This document shows, one piece after another, positions 25,671-36,540 of a DNA stretch of 37,356 nt (positions within the stretch are counted from its first letter, which is position 1; each line of letters begins with the position of its first letter). The stretch is from Gemmatimonadota bacterium (lineage in GTDB: Bacteria > Gemmatimonadota > Gemmatimonadetes > Gemmatimonadales > GWC2-71-9). The notes beneath the pieces are model-generated. The model was not told where the DNA came from and did no database searches. It was given only the letters and a program-made list of their open reading frames with translations. Both the position numbers and the translations under genes were made by a program. The DNA lies in NCBI GenBank assembly GCA_003223395.1, contig QHUZ01000043.1, forward strand, positions 1-37,356. Direction: 5' to 3'.

Positions 25671-27083
25671 TTACGGTTCTCCCACCACTCCAATCCGATC
25701 CGGCGCACCGGATTTCGCCTTCTGTAGCGCTCCTTCGGCGAGCGTAAAGAGATCTTCCGGGCGTAGTGCTTCGCTGTGCGGGTAGCCGACGACGCCGGCT
25801 GAGATGCCCGGTGCGTTGGCGGGGCCCAGGTCGCCGAAGGTGTGGCGCGCGAACACCTGCCGCAGCCGCTCCACGAAGTGGCGGCCGCCGGCGCCATCCG
25901 TCTCCGGCAGCACGCACGCGAATTCGTCACCGCCGTAGCGCGCCACGAAGTCGGGGGCGCGCAGCTCGCGCTGCAGGATAGCACCGATTTCGCCGAGCAC
26001 GCGATCGCCGGCGGTGTGGCCCAGCCGGTCGTTGATCTCGCGCAGGCGATCGATGTCGATCAGCACGAGCGAAAAGTGCAGTGAGTAGCGGCGTGCGCGC
26101 TCGAACTCATCGCGCATGCGGCGATCGAGCGCGTCGAGGGACGCGCAGCCGGTCGTCTCGTCGGTGGTACCGGCGCTGATCTGGCGCCGATAGATGGCCG
26201 AGCGGCGCTCTTCGTTTTCGAGCACGCGGGCGGCCGCCTGCGCGATCGTGTTGGCAAAGGCCACGTCCGCGGCCCGTAACTGGGGGTCGCCTTTTTCGGT
26301 CCGCAGGAAGAAAACCGCAGCGGCCCGGCCCTGCACGAACACCGGCAACGCCACAGCCGCCTGCACATTCACCTCGATCTGCTGCTTGCTCCAATGCTGC
26401 CGGATCGAGGCGAAGAGCGGATCCTCGTGCACGTTGTGGATGACCACAGGGCGCTCACTCCGGATCGCCTCCTGGATCTCGGGATAGCGCCCGAGGTCCA
26501 CGCGCAGATCGCGGATCGCTGGGTTCTCGTAGACCGCGACCACGCGACCCTTATCGTCTCCCGGCGCGGTGAGCACGAGCGAGCAGTGCGACAGGCCGAA
26601 CGCCTGGCCCACGCGCCGTACCAGGGTCTGGAAAATCTCGTCCGCACGCGCAGCTGCCGAGACTTCCTGGAAGATGTCGAACAACAGATCACGGGCGCGC
26701 AGCGCTTCCTGGGCTTCCCGCGCCTCGGTGCGCGCGCGGATGTGCACGTCCAGGCGGGCCCGCAGCTCGGCGAGGTGGATCGGGGCCACGAGCACGTCCC
26801 GCGCGCCGGCGAGCAGCGCTTCGGTTGCCGTCTCGGCCGGTCGGTGGGTCAGCAAGACGAAGATCGGCGCTCCACCATGGGTCGATTCGGTCGCCAGGGC
26901 GCGGATTTCAGCCGCGAGATCCGCGACGCCGGGATCGGGCGCATAGAGAATGAAATCGGGAGGAGTGGCCGACGCCGCTTCGGCTACCTGAAAGCCACCA
27001 CGAACCAGCATCCGCTCCAAACCATCGGGACGACGGCTGGGACTGCCGAGCAGCAGAATGCGATGACGCAACAGGTCCGGCAA
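25671..27083 (-). CDS. Diguanylate cyclase: pseudo-receiver, GAF and GGDEF domains
   Basis: 470 residues from TTG. Residues about 6-117 have a receiver-like fold but lack the paired acidic residues and the clear phospho-acceptor, so it is likely a pseudo-receiver. A GAF-like domain spans about 135-292. The GGDEF domain has the intact signature ARYGGDEFACVLPET (GGDEF at 384-388), the metal Asp342 in LIDIDRLREIND, and an allosteric I-site RAPD (375-378) exactly five residues upstream. It should make cyclic di-GMP from two GTP with product inhibition. There is no EAL domain. It is divergent from pcm across 46 bases and convergent with the ABC permease. Confidence 0.92.
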   Translation of the reverse strand: MPDLLRHRILLLGSPSRRPDGLERMLVRGGFQVAEAASATPPDFILYAPDPGVADLAAEIRALATESTHGGAPIFVLLTHRPAETATEALLAGARDVLVAPIHLAELRARLDVHIRARTEAREAQEALRARDLLFDIFQEVSAAARADEIFQTLVRRVGQAFGLSHCSLVLTAPGDDKGRVVAVYENPAIRDLRVDLGRYPEIQEAIRSERPVVIHNVHEDPLFASIRQHWSKQQIEVNVQAAVALPVFVQGRAAAVFFLRTEKGDPQLRAADVAFANTIAQAAARVLENEERRSAIYRRQISAGTTDETTGCASLDALDRRMRDEFERARRYSLHFSLVLIDIDRLREINDRLGHTAGDRVLGEIGAILQRELRAPDFVARYGGDEFACVLPETDGAGGRHFVERLRQVFARHTFGDLGPANAPGISAGVVGYPHSEALRPEDLFTLAEGALQKAKSGAPDRIGVVGEP

Positions 27084-27116
27084 ACGTCTTCTACCGCGCT
27101 AGGGGCGGGGGCAAGC

Positions 27117-27122
27117 TATAGT
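27117..27122 (+). promoter_or_regulatory. -10 hexamer for pcm, leaderless type
   Basis: TATAGT ends 7 bases before the pcm ATG (27130), so transcription should begin at the start codon. There is no Shine-Dalgarno and no convincing -35. Confidence 0.45.
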
Positions 27123-27129
27123 TCAGCGC

Positions 27130-27813
27130 ATGCCCCGGCAAGCACGTCCCGCACCGCACACCCGTGGACCTCGCACGCGCATGGTGGCACGGCAACTCGC
27201 GGGGCGCGGGATCAGGGATCCGCGGGTGCTCGCGGCAATGCGCTGGGCGCCACGCGAATGGTTTCTGCCGCCGCATCTCGCCGGCGACGCGTATAACGAC
27301 GGCCCCCTGCCGATTGGGAGCGGGCAGACGATTTCGCAGCCGTACGTCGTCGCACTGATGACTGAGCGCCTCGAGCCGAAACGCACGGACCGGATTCTCG
27401 AGATCGGCACCGGCTCCGGGTACCAGACCGCCATTCTCGCGTATCTCAGCTCGAGCGGCAGAGTTTTCACGGTCGAGCGCCTCCCCGACCTCCTCGTCGA
27501 AGCCGAAGAGCGGTTTCGGCGGCTCGGACTCAGCAACATCGAAACCCGGTTGGGAGACGGCGCGGCGGGCTGGCCGGAGGCAGCGCCCTTCGACCGGGTT
27601 ATCGTGGCCGCGGCGGCACCCCGCATTCCCGAGCAACTGACCGCCGAGCTGGCACCAGGGGGGCGGCTGGTCATTCCCGTCGGTGACCTCTCGTCGCAAG
27701 AGCTGGTCATTCTGGAACGGCCCGCGAGCGGCGCACGGTTGGTACAGCATCAAGCCGGCGGTGTGCGCTTCGTGCCGCTGATCTCGCGGTTCGCGTTCAC
27801 CGAAGAAGCGTGA
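27130..27813 (+). CDS. pcm: Protein-L-isoaspartate O-methyltransferase
   Basis: 227 residues with the Pcm pattern: RDPRVLAAMRWAPREWFLP, the substrate-loop PIGSGQTISQPYVVALM, SAM-binding motif I ILEIGTGSGYQTAIL, the acidic post-I FTVERLPDL and PGGRLVIPVG. The enzyme methylates L-isoaspartyl residues in aged proteins using S-adenosylmethionine, starting their repair. The ATG directly follows a -10 element. The first 15 residues are basic and not conserved, so a slightly later start cannot be excluded. Its TGA overlaps the ATG of nfo (TGATG). Confidence 0.94.
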   Translation: MPRQARPAPHTRGPRTRMVARQLAGRGIRDPRVLAAMRWAPREWFLPPHLAGDAYNDGPLPIGSGQTISQPYVVALMTERLEPKRTDRILEIGTGSGYQTAILAYLSSSGRVFTVERLPDLLVEAEERFRRLGLSNIETRLGDGAAGWPEAAPFDRVIVAAAAPRIPEQLTAELAPGGRLVIPVGDLSSQELVILERPASGARLVQHQAGGVRFVPLISRFAFTEEA

Positions 27814-28676
27814 TGCTCGGCGCGCACGTCTCGAGTCAGGGCGGGGTGGCGACGGCACCGGCGCGGGGCGGATCGCTGCGCGCCACGGCGATTCAGCTCT
27901 TTACCAAGACGCCGAACCAGTGGCGCGAGCGCGTGCTCGGCGCGGAACAGGTCGAGCGATTCCGGCAGGAGGTCGTGCGTCACAAGCTCGAGGCGGTAGT
28001 GTCGCACGACAGCTATCTCATCAACCTCGCCTCGCCGGACCCGGTGCTACGGGCGCGCAGCATCGAGAGTTTCCGACAGGAGCTCGAGCGCTCGCGAGCG
28101 CTGGGGTTGCGCGCGGTCGTCTCACATCCGGGCAACTACATGGATGAGCGCGCGGCGGGGGTCGAGCGCAATGCCGCGGGTTACGCGGAGTGCCTGCGGT
28201 CGGTTCCGGGCGATGTGGAGGTGTGGATCGAAGGCACAGCGGGATCGGGCACCGCGCTGGGCGCGAGGTTCGAGGAGCTGCGCGATTTGCGCAACGCGCT
28301 GCCTGACGGAATCCGGACGCGCGTCGGCTTCTGCCTCGATACCGCCCATCTGCACGCGGTCGGGTACGATCTGGCGCGGATCGAAGCGGTGTGGGAGGAG
28401 TTCGACCGCGTGATCGGGCTCGATCTACTTAAGTGCTTGCATCTCAATGACTCCCGCGCGGCGCGCGGATCGCGGGTAGATCGGCACGAATGGATCGCCG
28501 AGGGGCAAATCGGGCCGGAGCCGTTCCGGCGCATCATGCGGGACGCGCGATTGGCCGGGGTCGTTAAGATTATCGAAACGCCAAAGCGGGATGACCCGCT
28601 GCGGCACGATCGCCGGATGCTGCGGCGGTTGCGCGCGTACGCGCGCGGCAACACGCGAGCCGCTGTCGGCGTATGA
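27813..28676 (+). CDS. nfo: Endonuclease IV (AP endonuclease)
   Basis: 287 residues beginning MLGAHVSSQGG, the family N-terminus. ATG at 27813 is preferred over GTG at 27810 because it starts exactly there and overlaps the pcm stop. Metal-ligand regions are visible: VVSHDSYLINLASP, VVSHPGNYM, the Glu in WIEGTAGSGT, CLDTAHLHAVGYD, CLHLNDS, VDRHEWIAEG and IIETPK. It cuts the backbone 5' of abasic sites in base-excision repair and needs zinc. Length and motifs are complete. The small exported ORF that follows has its own Shine-Dalgarno 1 base after this stop. Confidence 0.94.
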   Translation: MLGAHVSSQGGVATAPARGGSLRATAIQLFTKTPNQWRERVLGAEQVERFRQEVVRHKLEAVVSHDSYLINLASPDPVLRARSIESFRQELERSRALGLRAVVSHPGNYMDERAAGVERNAAGYAECLRSVPGDVEVWIEGTAGSGTALGARFEELRDLRNALPDGIRTRVGFCLDTAHLHAVGYDLARIEAVWEEFDRVIGLDLLKCLHLNDSRAARGSRVDRHEWIAEGQIGPEPFRRIMRDARLAGVVKIIETPKRDDPLRHDRRMLRRLRAYARGNTRAAVGV

Positions 28677-28684
28677 AGGAGACC

Positions 28685-29008
28685 ATGCTGAAACGCATCT
28701 CGCTCATGCTGCTGCTCGCCATTCAGGCCCTTGGCGGTGGCGCGATCACGTTGGCGCACGCGCGCGACGCGGTCGTGGCGCCGCCCGGGTTTGAGGCGCG
28801 GCATGACGCGCGGTGCGCAATTCTTCACGACGAGCTGCGCTGCGCGCTCTGCCATTACGCGAGCGCCCGCGTCGTCCGGCAACAGGCCTTTACCCTCAAC
28901 ACGCCCCAGGTCGCCGTCCGCGTTGCGCCCGTGCAGCCGGTGGTCGTCTTCGCGGCCGTCGTTCCACTCACCGCCCCCGCGCGAGCGCCGCCTCCGTTCC
29001 TCTCCTGA
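28685..29008 (+). CDS. Exported Cys/His leader protein with C-terminal RAPP motif (copy A)
   Basis: 107 residues. AAGGAG at 28677-28682 selects the ATG at 28685 over one at 28673. A signal peptide (about 1-28) is followed by a metal-binding-type cluster His40, Cys44, His48, Cys53, Cys56, His57 and a hydrophobic stretch. It ends R100-A-P-P-P-F-L-S-stop. RAPP is known as a ribosome-arrest motif in exported arrest peptides, and DUF2946-type leader ORFs with CxxC regulate copper-uptake genes. The final codons pair with the Shine-Dalgarno of the next gene. A paralogue with the same design lies at 36202-36540 on the other strand. A regulatory leader role is inferred; it could also have a periplasmic metal-binding role. 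Confidence 0.75.
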   Translation: MLKRISLMLLLAIQALGGGAITLAHARDAVVAPPGFEARHDARCAILHDELRCALCHYASARVVRQQAFTLNTPQVAVRVAPVQPVVVFAAVVPLTAPARAPPPFLS

Positions 29009-29065
29009 ATCACCAGTACGCGCTCCGCACGTTGCGGAGCCCACGTTTCGCACATACAGGAGAGG
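28999..29065 (+). promoter_or_regulatory. Shine-Dalgarno-sequestering stem between leader A and the porin-like gene
   Basis: CCTCTCCTG (28999-29007, last codons plus stop of leader A) is perfectly complementary to CAGGAGAGG (29057-29065), which holds the Shine-Dalgarno of the gene starting at 29075. The loop contains a second perfect hairpin, GCTCCGCA (29022-29029) with TGCGGAGC (29033-29040). RAPP codons lie at 28982-28993, so a ribosome stalled there would cover the first arm and expose the Shine-Dalgarno. No U-tract follows, so it is not an intrinsic terminator. Confidence 0.65.
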
Positions 29066-29074
29066 TCATCCAAC

Positions 29075-30325
29075 ATGATACGCACGGTGTGCGCGGTGCT
29101 GCTTGCGGCGACGTGTTTCACGGCGCCCGGAGTCAGCCAGCAACCGACGCAACGACAGATGGATTCTTTAGCGGCGCAGGTCCGACAGCTGCGCGCCAGG
29201 CTGGACAGTGTTCTCGCCGCACTCGGACGTCGCCCTGCCCCGCCACCTCCCGCAGCGCCGGTCGGTGACGAGCTTGCCGCATTGCGGGCCGCTGCGAGCC
29301 AGGCCGCGGGCGGTGGCCTCAGCGACACCACGCGGGCCGCCGACACGCTGACGCAAGCCATGGGTCGGGAGCGGAACCAGGCCCAGCTGAATCCGGAGAT
29401 CGGCGCCACGGGAGACGTGCGCGCCTACGCGACGGGGCGCGGGGTGCAGCGCGAGAATTTCGATCCGCGAGAGTTCGAAGTCGGCTTCCAGTCGGCCCTC
29501 GATCCCTACTCGCATACGAAAATCTTCATCAGCCTCGAAGGCGGACACGTTAGTGTGGAGGAAGGGTACGCCTATTGGACCGGCCTGCCGGGACATATTC
29601 GACTCGACCTCGGTAAATACCGTCAGCAATTCGGCGAGCTCAATCGCTGGCATCTGCACGCGGTGCCGGAGACCGAGTACCCGCTCGCGATTACCACCTT
29701 CCTGGGGGAGGATGGGCTCTCGGGAACGGGGATTTCGCTGTATCGCGCCTTTGGCGGATTGGGGACACACGAGTTCACGGCACAGGTCACACGAAGCGCC
29801 AGTGACTCGGAGTTGTTCGGAAACAGCGGCCGGCCGACCTACCTGCTGCATCTCCTCAACTTCTGGCAACTCAACCATTCGACGTACATGCAGATCGGCG
29901 GCACGGCGCTGTACGGCACCGACCCCGATTCGGCGCTGCGCACGAAGGTCGGCGGGCTCGAGTTCCGCCTCACGTGGCGGCCGCCGCTCCGGGCGATGTA
30001 TCACGAATGGACGCTGCGCGGCGAACTGCTCGCGTTGCAGAAGCAGGTCGCCGGTACCGGGCCGACGCGCCTGGGAGGCTATGTCAGCTCCACCTACAAG
30101 CTGAACCAGCGTTTCATCCTCGGCGCCCGCTACGACTACGTCGAGTCGCCGGATTTCGGCGTGATCACGAGACAACTGATCCCCTCGCTCACGCTCTGGC
30201 AGAGCGAGTGGGTGTTCCTCCGCGCTCAATACCAGTGGCAGCAGATCGCGAATGCGCCCGCGAATCACCAGATCGCCTTCCAGGCGGTCTGGGCCATCGG
30301 ACCCCATAAACACGAGACCTACTGA
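29075..30325 (+). CDS. Porin-like outer-membrane beta-barrel protein
   Basis: 416 residues starting at ATG behind AGGAGAGG. A signal peptide (about 1-21) is followed by a short coiled coil (QRQMDSLAAQVRQLRARLDSVLAAL, about 27-51), a Pro/Ala linker, then a region of alternating amphipathic strands rich in Tyr, Trp and Gly typical of outer-membrane barrels, ending in HKHETY. No named family is recognised with certainty. It lies between the RAPP leader and ZnuA/ZnuB-type genes with only one base before the next ATG, so it probably passes metal or a metal complex across the outer membrane. Its Shine-Dalgarno lies in the leader stem. Confidence 0.72.
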   Translation: MIRTVCAVLLAATCFTAPGVSQQPTQRQMDSLAAQVRQLRARLDSVLAALGRRPAPPPPAAPVGDELAALRAAASQAAGGGLSDTTRAADTLTQAMGRERNQAQLNPEIGATGDVRAYATGRGVQRENFDPREFEVGFQSALDPYSHTKIFISLEGGHVSVEEGYAYWTGLPGHIRLDLGKYRQQFGELNRWHLHAVPETEYPLAITTFLGEDGLSGTGISLYRAFGGLGTHEFTAQVTRSASDSELFGNSGRPTYLLHLLNFWQLNHSTYMQIGGTALYGTDPDSALRTKVGGLEFRLTWRPPLRAMYHEWTLRGELLALQKQVAGTGPTRLGGYVSSTYKLNQRFILGARYDYVESPDFGVITRQLIPSLTLWQSEWVFLRAQYQWQQIANAPANHQIAFQAVWAIGPHKHETY

Positions 30326-30326
30326 C

Positions 30327-31373
30327 ATGCTAGCGATCATTGCTCTGTTACTTGGCGCCGTCAGCCCGTCGCCTTCACGACCAAACGCACCGGCGGCGCC
30401 GGTCAAGGTGGTCACCTCGCTCACGACGTACGCCGCGATCGCAGTGGAGATCGTGGGCGATCGGGGGAAAGTCAGCTCGATCGCCGTGGGTGACGAGAAT
30501 CCGCACTACGTGCAGCCCAAGCCGAGCTTCGTGCCGACCCTGGCACAGGCCGACTTGTTCGTGACGACGGGACTGGACCTCGAGCTCTGGGTGCCGGCGC
30601 TGCTCGACAAGGCGAACAATGCGAAGATCACCGAGGGTGGGCCCGGATATGTCGCGGCCTACCAGGGCCTGCCGCTGCTCGACGTTCCCGTCAACCTGTC
30701 GCGCTCCCAGGGCGACATCCACGTCTACGGCAACCCGCACATCTGGACCGACCCGCTGAATGCCGTGCTCATCGCGCGCAACATTCTGCGAGGGTTGAAG
30801 CGCGTCGCGCCCGAGAATGCGGACTATTTCACGGCTCGCGAAAAAGATTTCGAGGACCGGATGTATCGCGCATTGTTCGGCGACGAACTGGTGAAGTTGA
30901 TCGGCGGTGAGACGCTTGCCGATCTCGATCGTCAGGGCAAGCTGTTCAACTTCCTCGGGCAACAGCAGTATCAGGGCGCTCCGCTCATCGGCCGGTTGGG
31001 TGGCTGGCTGAAGCAGGGGATGCCGTTCCGCGGCAAGCTGGTGGCGTGCTACCACAAGGAGTGGGACTACTTCTCGCGCGAGTTCCAGGTCACCTGCTTC
31101 GATTATATCGAGCCGAAACCCGGTATTCCGCCGACGCCGCGCCATGTGCAGGAGATCATCACCGCGATGCGGGACCAGCACATTCAGGTGCTCTTGTCGA
31201 CGAATTACTACGATCGCAGTCAGGTGATGGACGTGGCCCAGCGGACGGGTGCCAAAGCGGTCATCGTGCCGTCCAACACCGGAGGTCAGGCCGGCGTGAA
31301 TACCTATTTCGATCTCATGAATCTCTGGGTCACGGAGCTCACCCAGGCCTTCGGCGCGAAGGAGGTTCCGTGA
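30327..31373 (+). CDS. ZnuA-type metal ABC transporter binding protein
   Basis: 348 residues with ATG one base after the previous stop. A short signal peptide precedes a cluster A-I solute-binding fold. Metal-ligand positions are His60 in ENPHYVQPKP, His138 in GNPHIWTDP, the His in ACYHKEWDYFSREF, and an acidic site near STNYYDRS. The His-rich loop common in zinc-specific ZnuA is absent, so manganese, iron or zinc are all possible. It should capture the ion in the periplasm and deliver it to the permease encoded next, which overlaps it by 4 bases. Confidence 0.88.
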   Translation: MLAIIALLLGAVSPSPSRPNAPAAPVKVVTSLTTYAAIAVEIVGDRGKVSSIAVGDENPHYVQPKPSFVPTLAQADLFVTTGLDLELWVPALLDKANNAKITEGGPGYVAAYQGLPLLDVPVNLSRSQGDIHVYGNPHIWTDPLNAVLIARNILRGLKRVAPENADYFTAREKDFEDRMYRALFGDELVKLIGGETLADLDRQGKLFNFLGQQQYQGAPLIGRLGGWLKQGMPFRGKLVACYHKEWDYFSREFQVTCFDYIEPKPGIPPTPRHVQEIITAMRDQHIQVLLSTNYYDRSQVMDVAQRTGAKAVIVPSNTGGQAGVNTYFDLMNLWVTELTQAFGAKEVP

Positions 31374-32233
31374 GCGGCTTGGAGTTGATGCTGCCGCCAT
31401 TCGTCGCCTGCATGATTCTCGTGGCCATGTTGTCGTACCTCGGCCTGCACGTCATCGCGCGCGAGGTCATCTTCGTAGACCTGTCGCTCGCGCAGATGGC
31501 GGCGCTGGGGAGTTTGTCCGCGCTGCTCTTCCACGTATCCCCCGACTCCGCGAAGACGTACGTGTTCGCCTTGCTGATGACGGCGGTTGGCGCGTTTCTG
31601 TTCGCGCTCACGCGGTCATCGGTGCACGGCGGCAGCGGGGCGGGCCGGGTGCCGCAGGAGGCCTTCATCGGCATCGTGTACGTGGTCGCGTCCGCTGCCG
31701 CGGTCCTGGTGGCGAACAAAGTCCCGGGCGGAGGCGAAGCGGTAGAGAAAACACTGGTGGGCAGTCTGCTGTGGGTCACGTGGCCGACGATCCGAAAGCT
31801 CGCGATCGCGTACGCTGCGTTGGGCGTGTTCCATTACGTCCTGCGGCGCCGCTTCCTCACAATCTCGTTCCATCCGCAGGAGGCCGAGGCGCAGGGTTGG
31901 AAGATTCGCTGGTGGGACTTCGTCTTTTACCTGTCGTTCGGCGTCGTGATTACGCTCGCGGTGCCGATTGCCGGCGTGCTGATGGTGTTCAGCTTCCTTG
32001 TTGTGCCGGCGGTGATCGCGAATCTCTTCACCGCGGACAAGCGCCGGCTGACGATTATCGCGTGGAGCTCAGGGGCCCTGGCATCGGTCCTCGGCCTGTG
32101 GCTGTCCTACACCAAGGATTTGCCCACCGGCCCGCTGGTCGTCTGCATGTACGGCCTACTGCTCGTTGCGGCGGCAGTGCTCCGCAGGCTCGGTATAGGC
32201 AACAAACCGCTACCGAATCCGCAGAACCACTAG
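31370..32233 (+). CDS. ZnuB-type metal ABC transporter permease
   Basis: 287 residues from GTG in a GTGA overlap. About eight hydrophobic helices are visible, with ABC-3 family features: LSYLGLHVIAREVIFVDLSLAQMAALG near the N-terminus and the EAF/SLLWVTWPT region in the middle, then GVLMVFSFLVVPAVIANLF. It forms the membrane channel for the metal held by the ZnuA-type protein. No ATPase gene is adjacent on either side, which is unusual; the motor must be encoded elsewhere. Its last 24 bases overlap the 3' end of the convergent metalloprotease gene. Confidence 0.88.
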   Translation: MSGLELMLPPFVACMILVAMLSYLGLHVIAREVIFVDLSLAQMAALGSLSALLFHVSPDSAKTYVFALLMTAVGAFLFALTRSSVHGGSGAGRVPQEAFIGIVYVVASAAAVLVANKVPGGGEAVEKTLVGSLLWVTWPTIRKLAIAYAALGVFHYVLRRRFLTISFHPQEAEAQGWKIRWWDFVFYLSFGVVITLAVPIAGVLMVFSFLVVPAVIANLFTADKRRLTIIAWSSGALASVLGLWLSYTKDLPTGPLVVCMYGLLLVAAAVLRRLGIGNKPLPNPQNH

Positions 32234-33895
32234 GCGCGGAATGACCGCCGGCGAAACGGCGGTCGTTCCATTCCCGCTGAAATGGAGCGTGAACGCCGCT
32301 CCCCCCGCCGGCTGCACCGCCCGCAGGTACGCGCCTGAGCCCGACTTGAGCGTACCCGTGAGGTTCACAGCGCCTCCCGCCGAGAATGTCGGGACGAGCG
32401 GGTACACCCGCGGGAAGACCTGGGCGTTCTGACTGTGGAGCGAGCTGAACGTGCGGCGGAAGTGCCAGCTCGTGTACTGGAGCTCGCTCGGCGCCGCGAA
32501 TCCGGGCAGATCGGAGACCCAGTTCGCGAGCGCCCAGTTGCTGACCGTCTGGCCGAAGGGCTGGCCGGTTTGCGCCGCGACGTTCGAGGCTCCCGTCAAT
32601 GACGTTTGGACGAGCTTGCCCGGCAACGCCGCGCCGAATTGATCCACGATGTAGCGGGTGAAGAGCCAGCTCCCGCCGACCATCGCCAACGACCCGTTAT
32701 CGACGGGGATCAACAACGGTGTATCCGCAGTTGCCAGCAGATATTGATAGGCATCGTACGCGTCCCCGAACGCGTAATTGCTGAACATCGCCGTGTCTGC
32801 CTCGGCGAGGTAACTCCGACCCGCGAGCTCCTCGGCGTATTTGGAGAGACCCTCGTCCAGCCATCCCTCTTCTGGGTTATTGGCACCCCTCAGCACGTGC
32901 TCGACGAAATTGATCATGTGCTGGAATTCGTGAGTGAAGGTGACCGGCGTGATGAAGTTGACCTCTGAATTCTTGTGCGCACAACTCAGCGTGCCTGCCG
33001 AATCGGCCACGATCGAGTAGAAGATCTCGCCGTTGTTGTAGGTCGTGGAGAATCCGGGAGCGAGGTCGCCGGGGAAGAAAAAGCCCGCGATGTAGCCGGC
33101 TCCAGGAGTGTTGCACTGCGCCGCCGTGACAAGCTTGTTCACCTGGTTGGTCATCAGGACGATGACGACGGAGTTGGAATCGATGTCCGACACGTGACCG
33201 AACGTGGTCGTGTCGAGCGGGTAGAGCCGCGAATCGAACACGTTCTTGAGCGAATCAAGATCGGTGGCGCTGAGCCCAGGAGAAGGAGCCAGCGAATCTA
33301 TGTAGATGGCGATGTGCACACCTACCGCCCGCGCAACGGCACGAACATTGACCGTCGTCAAACAGTTCGAGTCTGCACAGACTTTGAACGCTCGTTTGCT
33401 GCCAACCACCGGTGGGCCGGCGGCCGGTGACGGCTGTGGCACTCCGGCGCTGACCGCGGGCGCCGATCGATCGGCTGGCGGATAGCGACGATTGGTGGCG
33501 AGGTCCCGCAGGAAGTGATCGAAGGCCGCGGCTGTCGCACCCCGGCTGCGCGGACCGGACGGCGTGAAAGCGCGGGACATCGCGATCGACGGCACGGGTT
33601 CCGCCGACTGCAGCATGAAGGGCGCCGATGCCCCCGGCGTGCCGACGGTCGACCACGGCAGTACCAAGTACTCGGCGGTGTCGGGTGCGGTATTCGCCGC
33701 GAACGTCACGCAACCGGCATCGCTTGCGGGGTCGATGGACGTGTAGGCACCAACGGCAAGGGCCAGCGGCGTGCCGTGCGCCCCGCAGGACGGCAGGCCA
33801 GGCCCCGCCGAATCGCTACTGCATGCGACCGTCAGGACCAGGCCTCCCACACTTGCAAGAATTCCCAGCAATGAAACCCGAGTGCTCACAGCCAC
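32210..33895 (-). CDS. M30-like zinc metalloprotease lipoprotein
   Basis: 561 residues from GTG, starting one base after the TonB-receptor stop. A lipoprotein signal ends at VLTVACSS. The catalytic domain (about 175-440) carries the zinc motif TFTHEFQHMINF (HExxH) and, about 25 residues on, a downstream Glu in GWLDEGLSKYAEELAG. The arrangement resembles M30 hyicolysin-type proteases. The C-terminal 100 residues form a beta-rich domain. It would be anchored in the outer or inner membrane facing the periplasm or outside. Co-transcription with the TonB receptor suggests it may free metal or peptide for uptake, which is inference. Confidence 0.83.
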   Translation of the reverse strand: MAVSTRVSLLGILASVGGLVLTVACSSDSAGPGLPSCGAHGTPLALAVGAYTSIDPASDAGCVTFAANTAPDTAEYLVLPWSTVGTPGASAPFMLQSAEPVPSIAMSRAFTPSGPRSRGATAAAFDHFLRDLATNRRYPPADRSAPAVSAGVPQPSPAAGPPVVGSKRAFKVCADSNCLTTVNVRAVARAVGVHIAIYIDSLAPSPGLSATDLDSLKNVFDSRLYPLDTTTFGHVSDIDSNSVVIVLMTNQVNKLVTAAQCNTPGAGYIAGFFFPGDLAPGFSTTYNNGEIFYSIVADSAGTLSCAHKNSEVNFITPVTFTHEFQHMINFVEHVLRGANNPEEGWLDEGLSKYAEELAGRSYLAEADTAMFSNYAFGDAYDAYQYLLATADTPLLIPVDNGSLAMVGGSWLFTRYIVDQFGAALPGKLVQTSLTGASNVAAQTGQPFGQTVSNWALANWVSDLPGFAAPSELQYTSWHFRRTFSSLHSQNAQVFPRVYPLVPTFSAGGAVNLTGTLKSGSGAYLRAVQPAGGAAFTLHFSGNGTTAVSPAVIPRLVVLRIR

Positions 33896-33896
33896 T

Positions 33897-36101
33897 TTAG
33901 AACTCCGTCGTTATCCGCGCGATGAGTGAACGGCCCATGCCTGGATCCACTGCGTTGGTCTTGATACGGCTCAAGTAGTCCGCATAACGCCTGTCGAACG
34001 CGTTGCGCAACGACAGATCTACCATGATCGTGCGAGATCCGGCGACGAACCCCGCACCAGCACCGACGTTCATGAGCGCGTAGGGACGAGATTGATACCC
34101 CGCTCCTCCAAAAGCGTCCGCAAAAAACTGCCGCTCCGCGGGGTCGAGGCGTGTCTGGCGAGCATTGGTCTCACCGCCGATCGAGAAGTAGGCCCGCTGG
34201 CCGTGCTCAAGCCGCGCCGTCCACGTTGCGCGGAACGGCGGCATGTTGGGGAGCGGCTGATCGGTTGACGTGTTCTGGCCGCGCACATAATCCGCGGTGC
34301 CCTGCAGATGCAGATACGCTGTCGGGTGCCACTGGAACGCGCTCTCGAAGCCCGTGAGGCGAGCGTTTCCTTGGGTGACGTCGTAGATCTGAAAGCCCGA
34401 CGCGCTGTCGACGGTCCCAGTGGGGAACGTATAGATGTAGTCCTGAATCAGGTTGACGAACGCCCCCACCTCGAAGGCCAGCCGCGCCGTCTGTGCCCGC
34501 ACGGCAACATCGGTGTTGATGGACTTCTCCGTCTTGAGATTCGGGTTGCCCCGTTCGAAAGCGACAGTGCCCTCGTGCACGCCGTTCGAGTACAAGTCGA
34601 ACGAGGACGGAGCGCGGAACCCCCGACCCACGTTGATGACCAGCGCCGCCGGCTCACTGAGGTGGAACAACAGTCCCGCGTTGGCGATCGCCGAGCTCCA
34701 GGTGTGCGTCCGCGCGCTGTTTCCCAGGGCGGTATCGGCGTCCACATCGAGGCGGCGGTAATCGTAGCGCGCGCCGAACGATAGGTTCACGCGCCGTCCT
34801 TCGGACTGTTCGAATGCGTAGATACCCACCGTATTGAGCCGCGAGGGCGGGATCAACGTCTCTTCACCGAACTTGTTGAACGTCGTCCGCAACCCGGACA
34901 GACCGAGCAGGCCGGAGAACTGCCCGAGGGGCGCGTGGTGGTAGTGGACGTCCGCCAGATAGGTCTGCGAGAGCAGTCCCAGCCCCACGGTGCTCGTCGT
35001 GTCGTCTTCGAACTCCCGGCGCCGGCTGCGTTCGTAGCCGGTCGAGACCTCGAGACGAGCGGCGCCGAGCGGCAACGCGAGATCGGCCCGGGCGTGACTC
35101 GTGGACATCCGTTGCGTCGGGGTCGCGAGGGGATCTTCGTCCGTCATCGATATCCGCTCGTCGCGCTGCGAGAACGTTCCCGATAGACTCCCCCACGTTC
35201 CGCGCGCGCCGATGGTCCCGCTTCCACCGAGGGCTCGATCGCCGCTATTCCAGAGCACGTAGTCGGGCGTGTGTACATCGCCGCTGCTCCGTCCGCTGAG
35301 ACTGCCGCGGAATCCGACGCTCCCGCTCCCCCCCTCCAGATCGAGCGCGCCATCCTTGAGACCGTTGCCGCTGCCGTAAGCCGCCGACATCGTGCCGCGC
35401 ACGAACCCGGGCACCCCCACCGCGTCCGGAAGGTCCTTCTCGATGACGTTCACCACACCACCCAATGCGTCTGAGCCATACAGTACGCTCGCCGGACCGC
35501 GAATCACCTCGATCCGCTCGGCGTTCGCCGTCTCGATGTTAGGACTGTGCTCATCGCCCCACTGCTGGGTCTCGAGCCGCTGGCCGTCGTCCAGCACGAG
35601 CACCCGATTCGAGGTGAGACCGCGAATGACCGGCTTCCCGATCCCCACCCCGGTGCTCCAGCTGCGCACGCCGGCGACGCCCGAGAGCGTCTCACCGAGA
35701 CTCTGCGATTGCGACTGGCGGAGCTCATCGCCCGCCACGACGCTGGTAGGCTGGGGCGAGTTCAATGGGCTCGTAGCATTGGCACTGGCGGTAACCTGAA
35801 CGCCCGTCAATTCGACCACCGACTCCCGCATCGTCACGTCAGCGGTGACGTCGCCGCCCGTCGCGACGACGCTGCGGACCGCCGGGGCGTAGCCAATACG
35901 TTGGAAGGTGACGGTGAAGGTGCCCGCCGGGAGGCCGGCAATCGAATAGCGTCCTGAGGTATCGGTCGTCGTCGACCGATGCAGATCGGGAAGTGAGACC
36001 AGAACATCCGCAACCGGCGCACCGGCCGGGGTGGTGACGCGACCGGACAATATCCCGGTGCTGCCGGACAGTAGCGTGAGCAGCAATGTGAGGAAATGCA
36101 T
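33897..36101 (-). CDS. TonB-dependent outer-membrane receptor
   Basis: 734 residues; ATG at 36101 is chosen because AGGAGA lies 5 bases upstream and a signal peptide (MHFLTLLLTLLSG) starts there. An N-terminal carboxypeptidase-regulatory-like domain (about 18-95) precedes the plug: QSLGETLSGVAGVRSW, GKPVIRGLTSNRVLVLDDG and ERIEVIRGPASVLYGSDALGGVVNVI. A 22-strand-type barrel ends in Phe (RITTEF). The plug resembles ZnuD-like metal receptors in its PVIRG and DEHSPNIE segments, but the ligand is not proved. The upstream RAPP leader probably regulates it; the metalloprotease gene follows with a one-base gap. Confidence 0.92.
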   Translation of the reverse strand: MHFLTLLLTLLSGSTGILSGRVTTPAGAPVADVLVSLPDLHRSTTTDTSGRYSIAGLPAGTFTVTFQRIGYAPAVRSVVATGGDVTADVTMRESVVELTGVQVTASANATSPLNSPQPTSVVAGDELRQSQSQSLGETLSGVAGVRSWSTGVGIGKPVIRGLTSNRVLVLDDGQRLETQQWGDEHSPNIETANAERIEVIRGPASVLYGSDALGGVVNVIEKDLPDAVGVPGFVRGTMSAAYGSGNGLKDGALDLEGGSGSVGFRGSLSGRSSGDVHTPDYVLWNSGDRALGGSGTIGARGTWGSLSGTFSQRDERISMTDEDPLATPTQRMSTSHARADLALPLGAARLEVSTGYERSRRREFEDDTTSTVGLGLLSQTYLADVHYHHAPLGQFSGLLGLSGLRTTFNKFGEETLIPPSRLNTVGIYAFEQSEGRRVNLSFGARYDYRRLDVDADTALGNSARTHTWSSAIANAGLLFHLSEPAALVINVGRGFRAPSSFDLYSNGVHEGTVAFERGNPNLKTEKSINTDVAVRAQTARLAFEVGAFVNLIQDYIYTFPTGTVDSASGFQIYDVTQGNARLTGFESAFQWHPTAYLHLQGTADYVRGQNTSTDQPLPNMPPFRATWTARLEHGQRAYFSIGGETNARQTRLDPAERQFFADAFGGAGYQSRPYALMNVGAGAGFVAGSRTIMVDLSLRNAFDRRYADYLSRIKTNAVDPGMGRSLIARITTEF

Positions 36102-36102
36102 G

Positions 36103-36213
36103 ACGCTCTCCTGTTCAGGCGCGCGCACACCCCTCCAACGGAGTCGTGAACGCGAGCGAGTTGTTTGAATTGCGGTCGCCGCGGAAGCGCGGCGCCGTTA
36201 CTCAGGAGAGCGT
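36103..36213 (-). promoter_or_regulatory. Shine-Dalgarno-sequestering stem between leader B and the TonB receptor
   Basis: On the minus-strand transcript ACGCTCTCCTG (36213-36203, last codons plus stop of leader B) is perfectly complementary over 11 bp to CAGGAGAGCGT (36113-36103), which contains the receptor's Shine-Dalgarno. The 89-base loop holds a 7-bp GC hairpin (36177-36183 with 36188-36194). RAPP codons at 36225-36214 lie directly before the first arm, so an arrested ribosome would mask it. Confidence 0.68.
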
Positions 36214-36540
36214 GGGAGGAGCGCGCGAACCAGGAAGAGTGAGATCAGCGGCAGTCGACGAGTGCTGAACGACAATCGGCGCCCATCTGATGCCCCGCCC
36301 TTCGGGAATGCGAATGACAGTCGTTGCTGTACGGGCGAGTGGTGCCGAGAGAAGTCGGTGGAATGCGCAGTCGGCCGGATGGATGCGGGGGCACCCGGCC
36401 GTGGAGTGCGACTCGATGTGCGCCGGACCGGACTGCTCGCCGATGCTGGCATCGGCCCACGCCGCGGCCGCCGGCACGCTGAATTGCAACAGCGCGAGGA
36501 GGAGAAGCGGCGTCCGGACCCACAGCGAGCGTTTCCGCAT
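36202..36540 (-). CDS. Exported Cys/His leader protein with C-terminal RAPP motif (copy B)
   Basis: 112 residues, starting at the ATG that lies 7 bases after TAATAT on the minus strand. A signal peptide (about 1-28, MRKRSLWVRTPLLLLALLQF) is followed by the cluster His41, His45, Cys50, His54, Cys58, His61. It ends R106-A-P-P-T-L-S-stop. Alignment with copy A by eye gives H-x(3/4)-C-x3-H-x(3/4)-C-x2-[C/H] and the same RAPP...LS tail. It is 100 bases upstream of the TonB receptor on the same strand and its last codons pair with that gene's Shine-Dalgarno. A metal-responsive arrest-peptide role is inferred; the metal (copper, zinc or other) is unknown. Confidence 0.75.
   Translation of the reverse strand: MRKRSLWVRTPLLLLALLQFSVPAAAAWADASIGEQSGPAHIESHSTAGCPRIHPADCAFHRLLSAPLARTATTVIRIPEGRGIRWAPIVVQHSSTAADLTLPGSRAPPTLS

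Follow-up and report, generated by a model that had tools for sequence, protein, structure and literature searches.

How is translation of a metal-uptake gene controlled when its ribosome-binding site is paired with the end of the small gene in front of it? This question is raised by leader A, a short gene in a stretch of 37,356 nucleotides (hereafter, the window), which is the first gene before those for a porin-like protein, a ZnuA-type binding protein and an ABC-3 permease (Table 1). We consider it reasonably probable that leader A is a nascent-chain metal switch resembling CruR and CutF, in which ribosome arrest at a RAPP sequence would free the Shine-Dalgarno (SD) sequence of the porin-like gene and turn zinc uptake on when zinc is scarce. 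Copper-responsive leaders have already been published, and a zinc-uptake form in Gemmatimonadota would make such a sensor a general module, the motif of which sets the metal.

Table 1. Features of the window, with positions counted from its first base
Feature	Position	Strand	Remarks
Probable SD of leader A, AAGGAG	28676..28681	+	from sequence; precedes ATG 28685
Leader A coding sequence	28685..29008	+	probable start ATG 28685, 107 aa; ORF call from 28673, 111 aa
Cys/His motif H-x3-C-x3-H-x4-C-x2-C-H	28802..28855	+	leader A
RAPP codons, predicted arrest site	28982..28993	+	third and fourth codons in P and A site
5' arm of SD-masking stem, CCTCTCCTG	28999..29007	+	leader A
Leader A stop codon TGA	29006..29008	+	partly within 5' arm
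Inner 8-bp hairpin	29022..29040	+	arms GCTCCGCA/TGCGGAGC, 29022-29029/29033-29040; 3-base loop
3' arm, CAGGAGAGG	29057..29065	+	includes SD AGGAGAGG of porin-like gene
Porin-like outer-membrane barrel gene	29075..30325	+	416 aa
ZnuA/AztC-type metal-binding protein of ABC transporter	30327..31373	+	probable start; Pfam ZnuA 2.9e-42
ABC-3 metal permease (AztB/ZnuB type)	31370..32233	+	probable start; Pfam ABC-3 1.1e-29; NCBIfam
ZnuD-like TonB-dependent receptor	33897..36101	-	probable start ATG 36101
Leader B 3' arm, CAGGAGAGCGT	36103..36113	-	contains TonB receptor SD
Leader B 5' arm, ACGCTCTCCTG	36203..36213	-	
Leader B, related RAPP leader	36202..36540	-	ends SRAPPTLS and stop; motif CPRIHPADCAFH

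Leader A and the pairing at its end

Leader A is a true coding gene. Its SD overlaps the end of an AP-endonuclease-type gene (stop TGA 28674-28676), and in-frame homologues were found in 33 of 102 family genomes; across the phylum, 44 of the 395 sampled genomes have a homologue, the homologue-bearing contigs with names being Gemmatimonadetes metagenome bins. The upstream ATG at 28673 is missing in four relatives (L013, L015, L027 and L060). From the probable start, leader A begins 8 bases past the AP-endonuclease stop (28673-28687).

As judged by eye, the leader has a candidate Sec signal peptide with a basic start and a long hydrophobic stretch with an A-x-A-like end, and its Cys/His motif is made up of H44, C48, H52, C57, C60 and H61 (111-aa numbering), including the CXXC motif CALC at residues 57-60. 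All six positions are invariant in an alignment of eight sequences; His61 is changed to Gln in several members of the wider leader set, and CxxC is present in 33 of the 36 leader-A-type loci. The C terminus reads PARAPPPFLS, and the last codons are CGA GCG CCG CCT CCG TTC CTC TCC TGA.

The sequence-only reading had described a perfect 9-bp stem that joins the end of the leader to the SD of the porin-like gene, with an extra perfect 8-bp hairpin inside it; both are exact in the sequence, as are the 66 bases that it counted between stop and start (29009-29074) and the 5 bases between the RAPP codons and the arm (28994-28998). The 5' arm consists of the last base of the third-last codon, the last two codons and the first two bases of the stop. 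RNA folding bore out most of this arrangement: in the minimum-free-energy structure of 28940-29110, the inner hairpin forms together with eight of the outer pairs while the ninth base joins another helix, and all nine outer pairs are present when a shorter stretch is folded by itself. This 171-nt fold is mildly unusual (z -1.78; 8 of 200 shuffles were as stable), and when the leader A tail is recoded synonymously, 6% of the versions match the native pairing with the SD. A search of the 3.41-Mb genome with the pattern TCTCCTGA-N30-60-AGGAGA returned a single match, which is leader A itself, and none with the reversed control. The stem of window leader A alone is modestly unusual, and the comparative tests carry the main weight. 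A two-part fold is present in 8 of 8 same-genus loci, with a hairpin at the inner position in each.

An Rfam search of the window yielded no riboswitch or other known RNA. The search for an intrinsic terminator near leader A was negative, as was that for a sigma-70-like promoter in 27000-29300. Considering this promoter result together with the adjoining AP-endonuclease gene, the uptake genes may be transcribed together with housekeeping genes.

Recurrence of leaders, motifs and pairing

A related leader, leader B, precedes the gene of the ZnuD-like receptor, the SD of which pairs with the final codons of leader B in a helix of 11 bp. The leader A and leader B families match each other in profile comparison (hhalign probability 96.0, E 4e-9), 99 of the 395 genomes have leader-B-type matches (among which are a few leader-A copies), and the pattern CTCTCCTGA-N61-91-AGGAGAG also has one match in the 3.41-Mb genome, namely leader B, with none for the reversed control. 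The metal motif of window leader B ends in CxxH, not CxxC.

A total of 110 leader loci were parsed, 22 of which were left out of the pairing tests (ambiguous downstream start or no RAPP), including L107 and L133, which run off their locus ends. For these tests, start codons were chosen by SD strength and 10 of them were set by hand. Weak matches to the A1 profile lie outside the 110 (G033, G300, G313, G329, G306, G221, G082, G180 and G038); some of these matches entered an initial trial of 46 loci, and no RAPP was seen in L058 (G180) or L059 (G038). Leader-B-type genome matches weaker than approximately 2e-6 are mostly outside the locus sample.

R[AGP]PP was detected near the C terminus in 108 of the 110 loci (95 RAPP, 11 RGPP and 2 RPPP), a count that, like the other motif counts, is partly selected for because the loci were found with motif-containing profiles, and the two loci that lack it run off their locus ends. 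The distance from the cysteine motif to RAPP is 43-46 residues in all 105 measurable loci, and 43 in window leader A. Among the 74 leader-B-type loci, 67 have CxxC and five others have CxxH, window leader B included.

In the 54 family loci (19 genus-by-type groups), arms of the same locus pair at -15.12 kcal/mol versus -12.85 kcal/mol for mismatched arms, a result matched by 1 of 5000 permutations; for the 34 loci from other families (14 groups), the corresponding values are -12.85 and -9.08 kcal/mol, and none of 5000 permutations did as well. With the tail recoded synonymously, none of 300 trials matched the native pairing in either set. The tail pairs best with the SD in 23 of the 54 family loci versus 3.0 expected, and in 4 of the 34 loci outside the family (f2, 3/28 with 1.6 expected; f3, 0/3; f6, 1/2; f7, 0/1), so that SD masking proper is well supported within the family and weak outside it. 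Helices of at least 8 bp are formed in 39 of the 54 family loci versus 25% of mismatched arm pairs, and poorly pairing members also exist (arm duplex energies of -7.1 in L014 and -9.2 in L065). The stem is conserved while its sequence changes: the pair types are, for example, CG, GC, UA, UG and GU at position -7 from the stop, and UA, GC, CG, UG and AU at position -9, these being taken from predicted best duplexes and thus illustrative, with the mismatched-arm and recoding tests as the controls. Pairs were counted by duplex in each locus because the same-genus DNA alignment misplaced the 3' arm in L012, L013 and L027.

Comparison with known arrest leaders

RAPP is known from the literature as an arrest motif (PMC10951233, PMC12992588), and arrest of CruR at RAPP was shown in vitro and toeprinted at the matching position (PMC12992588). 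In the CutF-CutO system of Rhodobacter capsulatus (PMC9973294), the leader is exported, resembles DUF2946, carries a Cys motif and a proline-rich C terminus and must be translated in cis, and an mRNA stem masks the SD of the next gene; leader A, with its candidate signal peptide, has a similar layout. CutF serves copper detoxification and has CxxxC (PMC9973294), whereas leader A precedes uptake genes and has CxxC plus His as well as a clean RAPP; unlike in CutF, the masking arm of leader A consists of its final codons and stop. CruR-bfrG of Bordetella pertussis (PMC9426467) shares with leader A a CXXC motif and a C-terminal RAPP, the 45 residues between which vary by one or two across the CruR family; CruR heads an outer-membrane metal importer, and its RAPP is needed for downstream expression. 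Copper relieves the arrest of CruR and the importer is turned off (PMC9426467), while copper is proposed to prolong stalling on CutF and so to turn a detoxifying oxidase on (PMC9973294). RAPP/RGPP uORFs that precede metal genes are reported from several phyla, TonB-related genes included (PMC12992588); zinc and Gemmatimon are absent as words from the main text of that paper, the relevant parts of which do not discuss an SD-masking stem.

On these comparisons, leader A would work like CutF in masking the SD, with the motif layout of CruR, and this system of a soil bacterium looks like a zinc version of a known copper switch. Searches of a collection of open-access papers found none on a RAPP leader that controls zinc uptake.

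With regard to family assignment, leader A was tried as a member of Pfam DUF2946 and gave no match even at E 10, nor did DUF2946 match anything in the leader's own genome. Weak matches to DUF2946 were obtained for five of eight leader-A sequences (best E 0.013) and four of six leader-B sequences (best E 0.018), and since the cut-off is missed the leader is not filed under this family. Leader A also has a weak local similarity to the CzcI family (NCBIfam NF045614) over residues 54-96 (E 0.048), far below the cut-off (14.3 versus 100 bits). CzcI is without the C-terminal proline motif according to the CutF authors (PMC9973294).

CruR-bfrG differs from leader A in responding to copper and in relying on Rho-dependent termination in a 162-bp gap (PMC9426467), and the words Shine and hairpin are absent from the main text of that paper. 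If leader A were an attenuator of the CruR type, the arrested ribosome would keep Rho from loading onto a C-rich stretch, with a secondary or RNA-protective role left for the stem. C exceeds G at approximately 28829-29062 (40-47% C versus 22-32% G), which is the signature used in PMC9426467, and the terminator search would agree with such a role; however, the gap of leader A is short and structured compared with the 162 bases of CruR, and the covarying conservation of the SD-arm pairing would be unneeded, which makes this explanation unlikely.

ApdA and ApdP (PMC10951233) have a RAP-P arrest motif near the C terminus, like leader A, and are thought to regulate the protein localization machinery; the passages concerned mention no conserved Cys/His motif. 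Leader A could similarly be a secretion monitor comparable to SecM/ApdP, with Sec export of the leader, not metal, relieving arrest and tuning outer-membrane protein synthesis to export capacity. Its N-terminal hydrophobic segment, its ApdA/ApdP-like C-terminal RAPP and the exported appearance of the downstream products are in line with this proposal, but the Cys/His positions and the cysteine-to-RAPP spacing are kept and the downstream genes are for metal uptake, not sec, and we find it improbable.

A model of the switch

In the nascent-chain switch that we favor, the mRNA would by default adopt a fold in which the SD of the porin-like gene is hidden by the last codons and stop of leader A; the porin-like gene would head the binding-protein and permease genes under leader A control. 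A ribosome on leader A would then arrest with the RAP-P codons in its P and A sites. The leading edge of a ribosome lies 16 bases from the first P-site base, and that of the arrested ribosome would cover about half of the 5' arm, opening the stem and exposing the SD for as long as the arrest lasts. The ribosome tunnel is 30-40 residues long, and the Cys/His motif, about 44 residues before RAPP, would be near or just outside the tunnel exit. Ample metal, probably zinc, would bind this motif and relieve the arrest, after which termination would occur, the stem would re-form and uptake would be off; when metal is scarce, the arrest would persist and uptake would be on. The sequence, the conserved motifs with their spacing, the covarying stem and the gene context are observed, whereas the arrest, the identity of the metal and the direction of the response are what we infer here, and the direction expected is that of CruR (low zinc, arrest, uptake on) because uptake genes lie downstream.

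In a folding model, the SD of window A is unpaired with a probability of 0.12 in the free RNA, 0.10 with a sham ribosome placed 12 codons back and 0.47 with a ribosome at RAPP. Across the family, the RAPP ribosome raises SD opening by more than 0.1 relative to the sham in 35 of 54 loci and lowers it by more than 0.1 in four. With window leader B, the value is 0.46 for the sham ribosome and likewise 0.46 for the RAPP ribosome, so that the model predicts no gain from stalling.

The sequence-only reading had placed the porin-like gene under the control of the leader's stop codon. This proposal is supported in part: the closing codons of the leader mask the SD, so that exposure of the SD should require translation of the leader, and relatives have the arrangement with altered sequence. 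The stop codon itself is unlikely to be the controlling point, as ribosomes at the stop and at RAPP both give 0.47 in the folding model versus 0.12 without a ribosome. Since both open the SD equally, the regulated quantity would be dwell time, and the switch is likely to be the arrest site rather than the stop codon. The same equality would be expected from plain translational coupling, in which any ribosome that reaches the stop opens the SD and RAPP acts without regulated arrest; nevertheless, such coupling would have no need of the R[AGP]PP kept in nearly all loci, and RAPP is a known arrest motif, which leaves this explanation with little probability. It is very improbable that a secreted metal-binding leader has C-rich end codons that match a purine-rich SD by chance or under other selection, for which the mild z value, the recodings of the window stem and the 8-bp helices of mismatched family arms would speak, given the family-wide own-versus-mismatched and recoding tests and the two leaders in one locus, each the sole match of its own-genome pattern.

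The nascent-chain reading can be extended to both leaders, and we tentatively regard it as plausible, if short of probable, that a zinc switch of this kind is used twice in one zinc-uptake locus by related exported Cys/His leaders with RAPP arrest. The covered anti-SD arms would lie in the leaders' own last codons and stop, each leader would unmask a separate outer-membrane zinc uptake gene, and leader B would act for the ZnuD-like receptor as leader A does for the porin-like gene. If true, control would reside within an operon that is possibly co-transcribed with housekeeping genes, and would act in addition to Zur or in its place; a search of the same genome for FUR-family proteins gave one match, below the cut-off, which neither proves nor excludes a Zur. 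An arm located in the last codons and stop would couple arrest to SD exposure in a compact and testable way, and natural variants for in vitro tests are available among the 110 loci.

The metal and the wider leader family

The placement of the leader as a CruR/CutF-like protein with a Cys/His motif ahead of zinc-type uptake genes, which the sequence-only reading lacked, suggests what the signal might be. The porin-like protein has no Pfam or NCBIfam match; its structural model, which is of low confidence (mean pLDDT 50.9), has many long strands and an N-terminal helix, and its best Foldseek matches are porins, although weak. The end of this protein, WAIGPHKHE, is nearly invariant in nine relatives. 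For the binding protein, the best NCBIfam match is AztC (5e-20, under its cut-off), the best PDB matches by E-value are iron/manganese-type proteins such as YfeA, and three His align with those of a laminin-binding protein. Laminin-binding protein binds zinc through three histidines. The order of porin-like, ZnuA-type and ABC-3 genes is repeated in L070 and L073, as judged from ORF maps.

The best PDB match of the receptor is ZnuD (4rdr, 3.9e-28), which is also its best NCBIfam match (1.5e-51), but with 175.9 bits versus a cut-off of 950 the protein is termed ZnuD-like. Its start at ATG 36101, with a strong SD, is preferred over GTG 36128 of the mechanical ORF call. This context of ZnuA/AztC, AztB and ZnuD-like genes makes zinc the probable metal.

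Elsewhere, one of five tested receptors behind leader B (G269) is ZnuD-like at 1e-15, and those in G111, G282, G145 and G137 are not at this threshold. In L075 (3293-4669, G033), a related RAPP leader is followed after approximately 190 bases by a gene for outer-membrane efflux (OEP), indicating that the leader family heads export systems too. In view of the receptors, mostly not ZnuD-like, and this efflux gene, the leader family probably serves several metal systems, with zinc as a candidate metal; nickel and cobalt were proposed by the CutF authors for some relatives (PMC9973294).

Between the permease and the receptor lies a gene of 561 aa (32210-33895, minus strand) with weak Pfam matches below the cut-off (peptidase MA, COX2), and in L068, L069 and L071 the receptor has near it a gene about as long, with the ending IRIR or ARIR.
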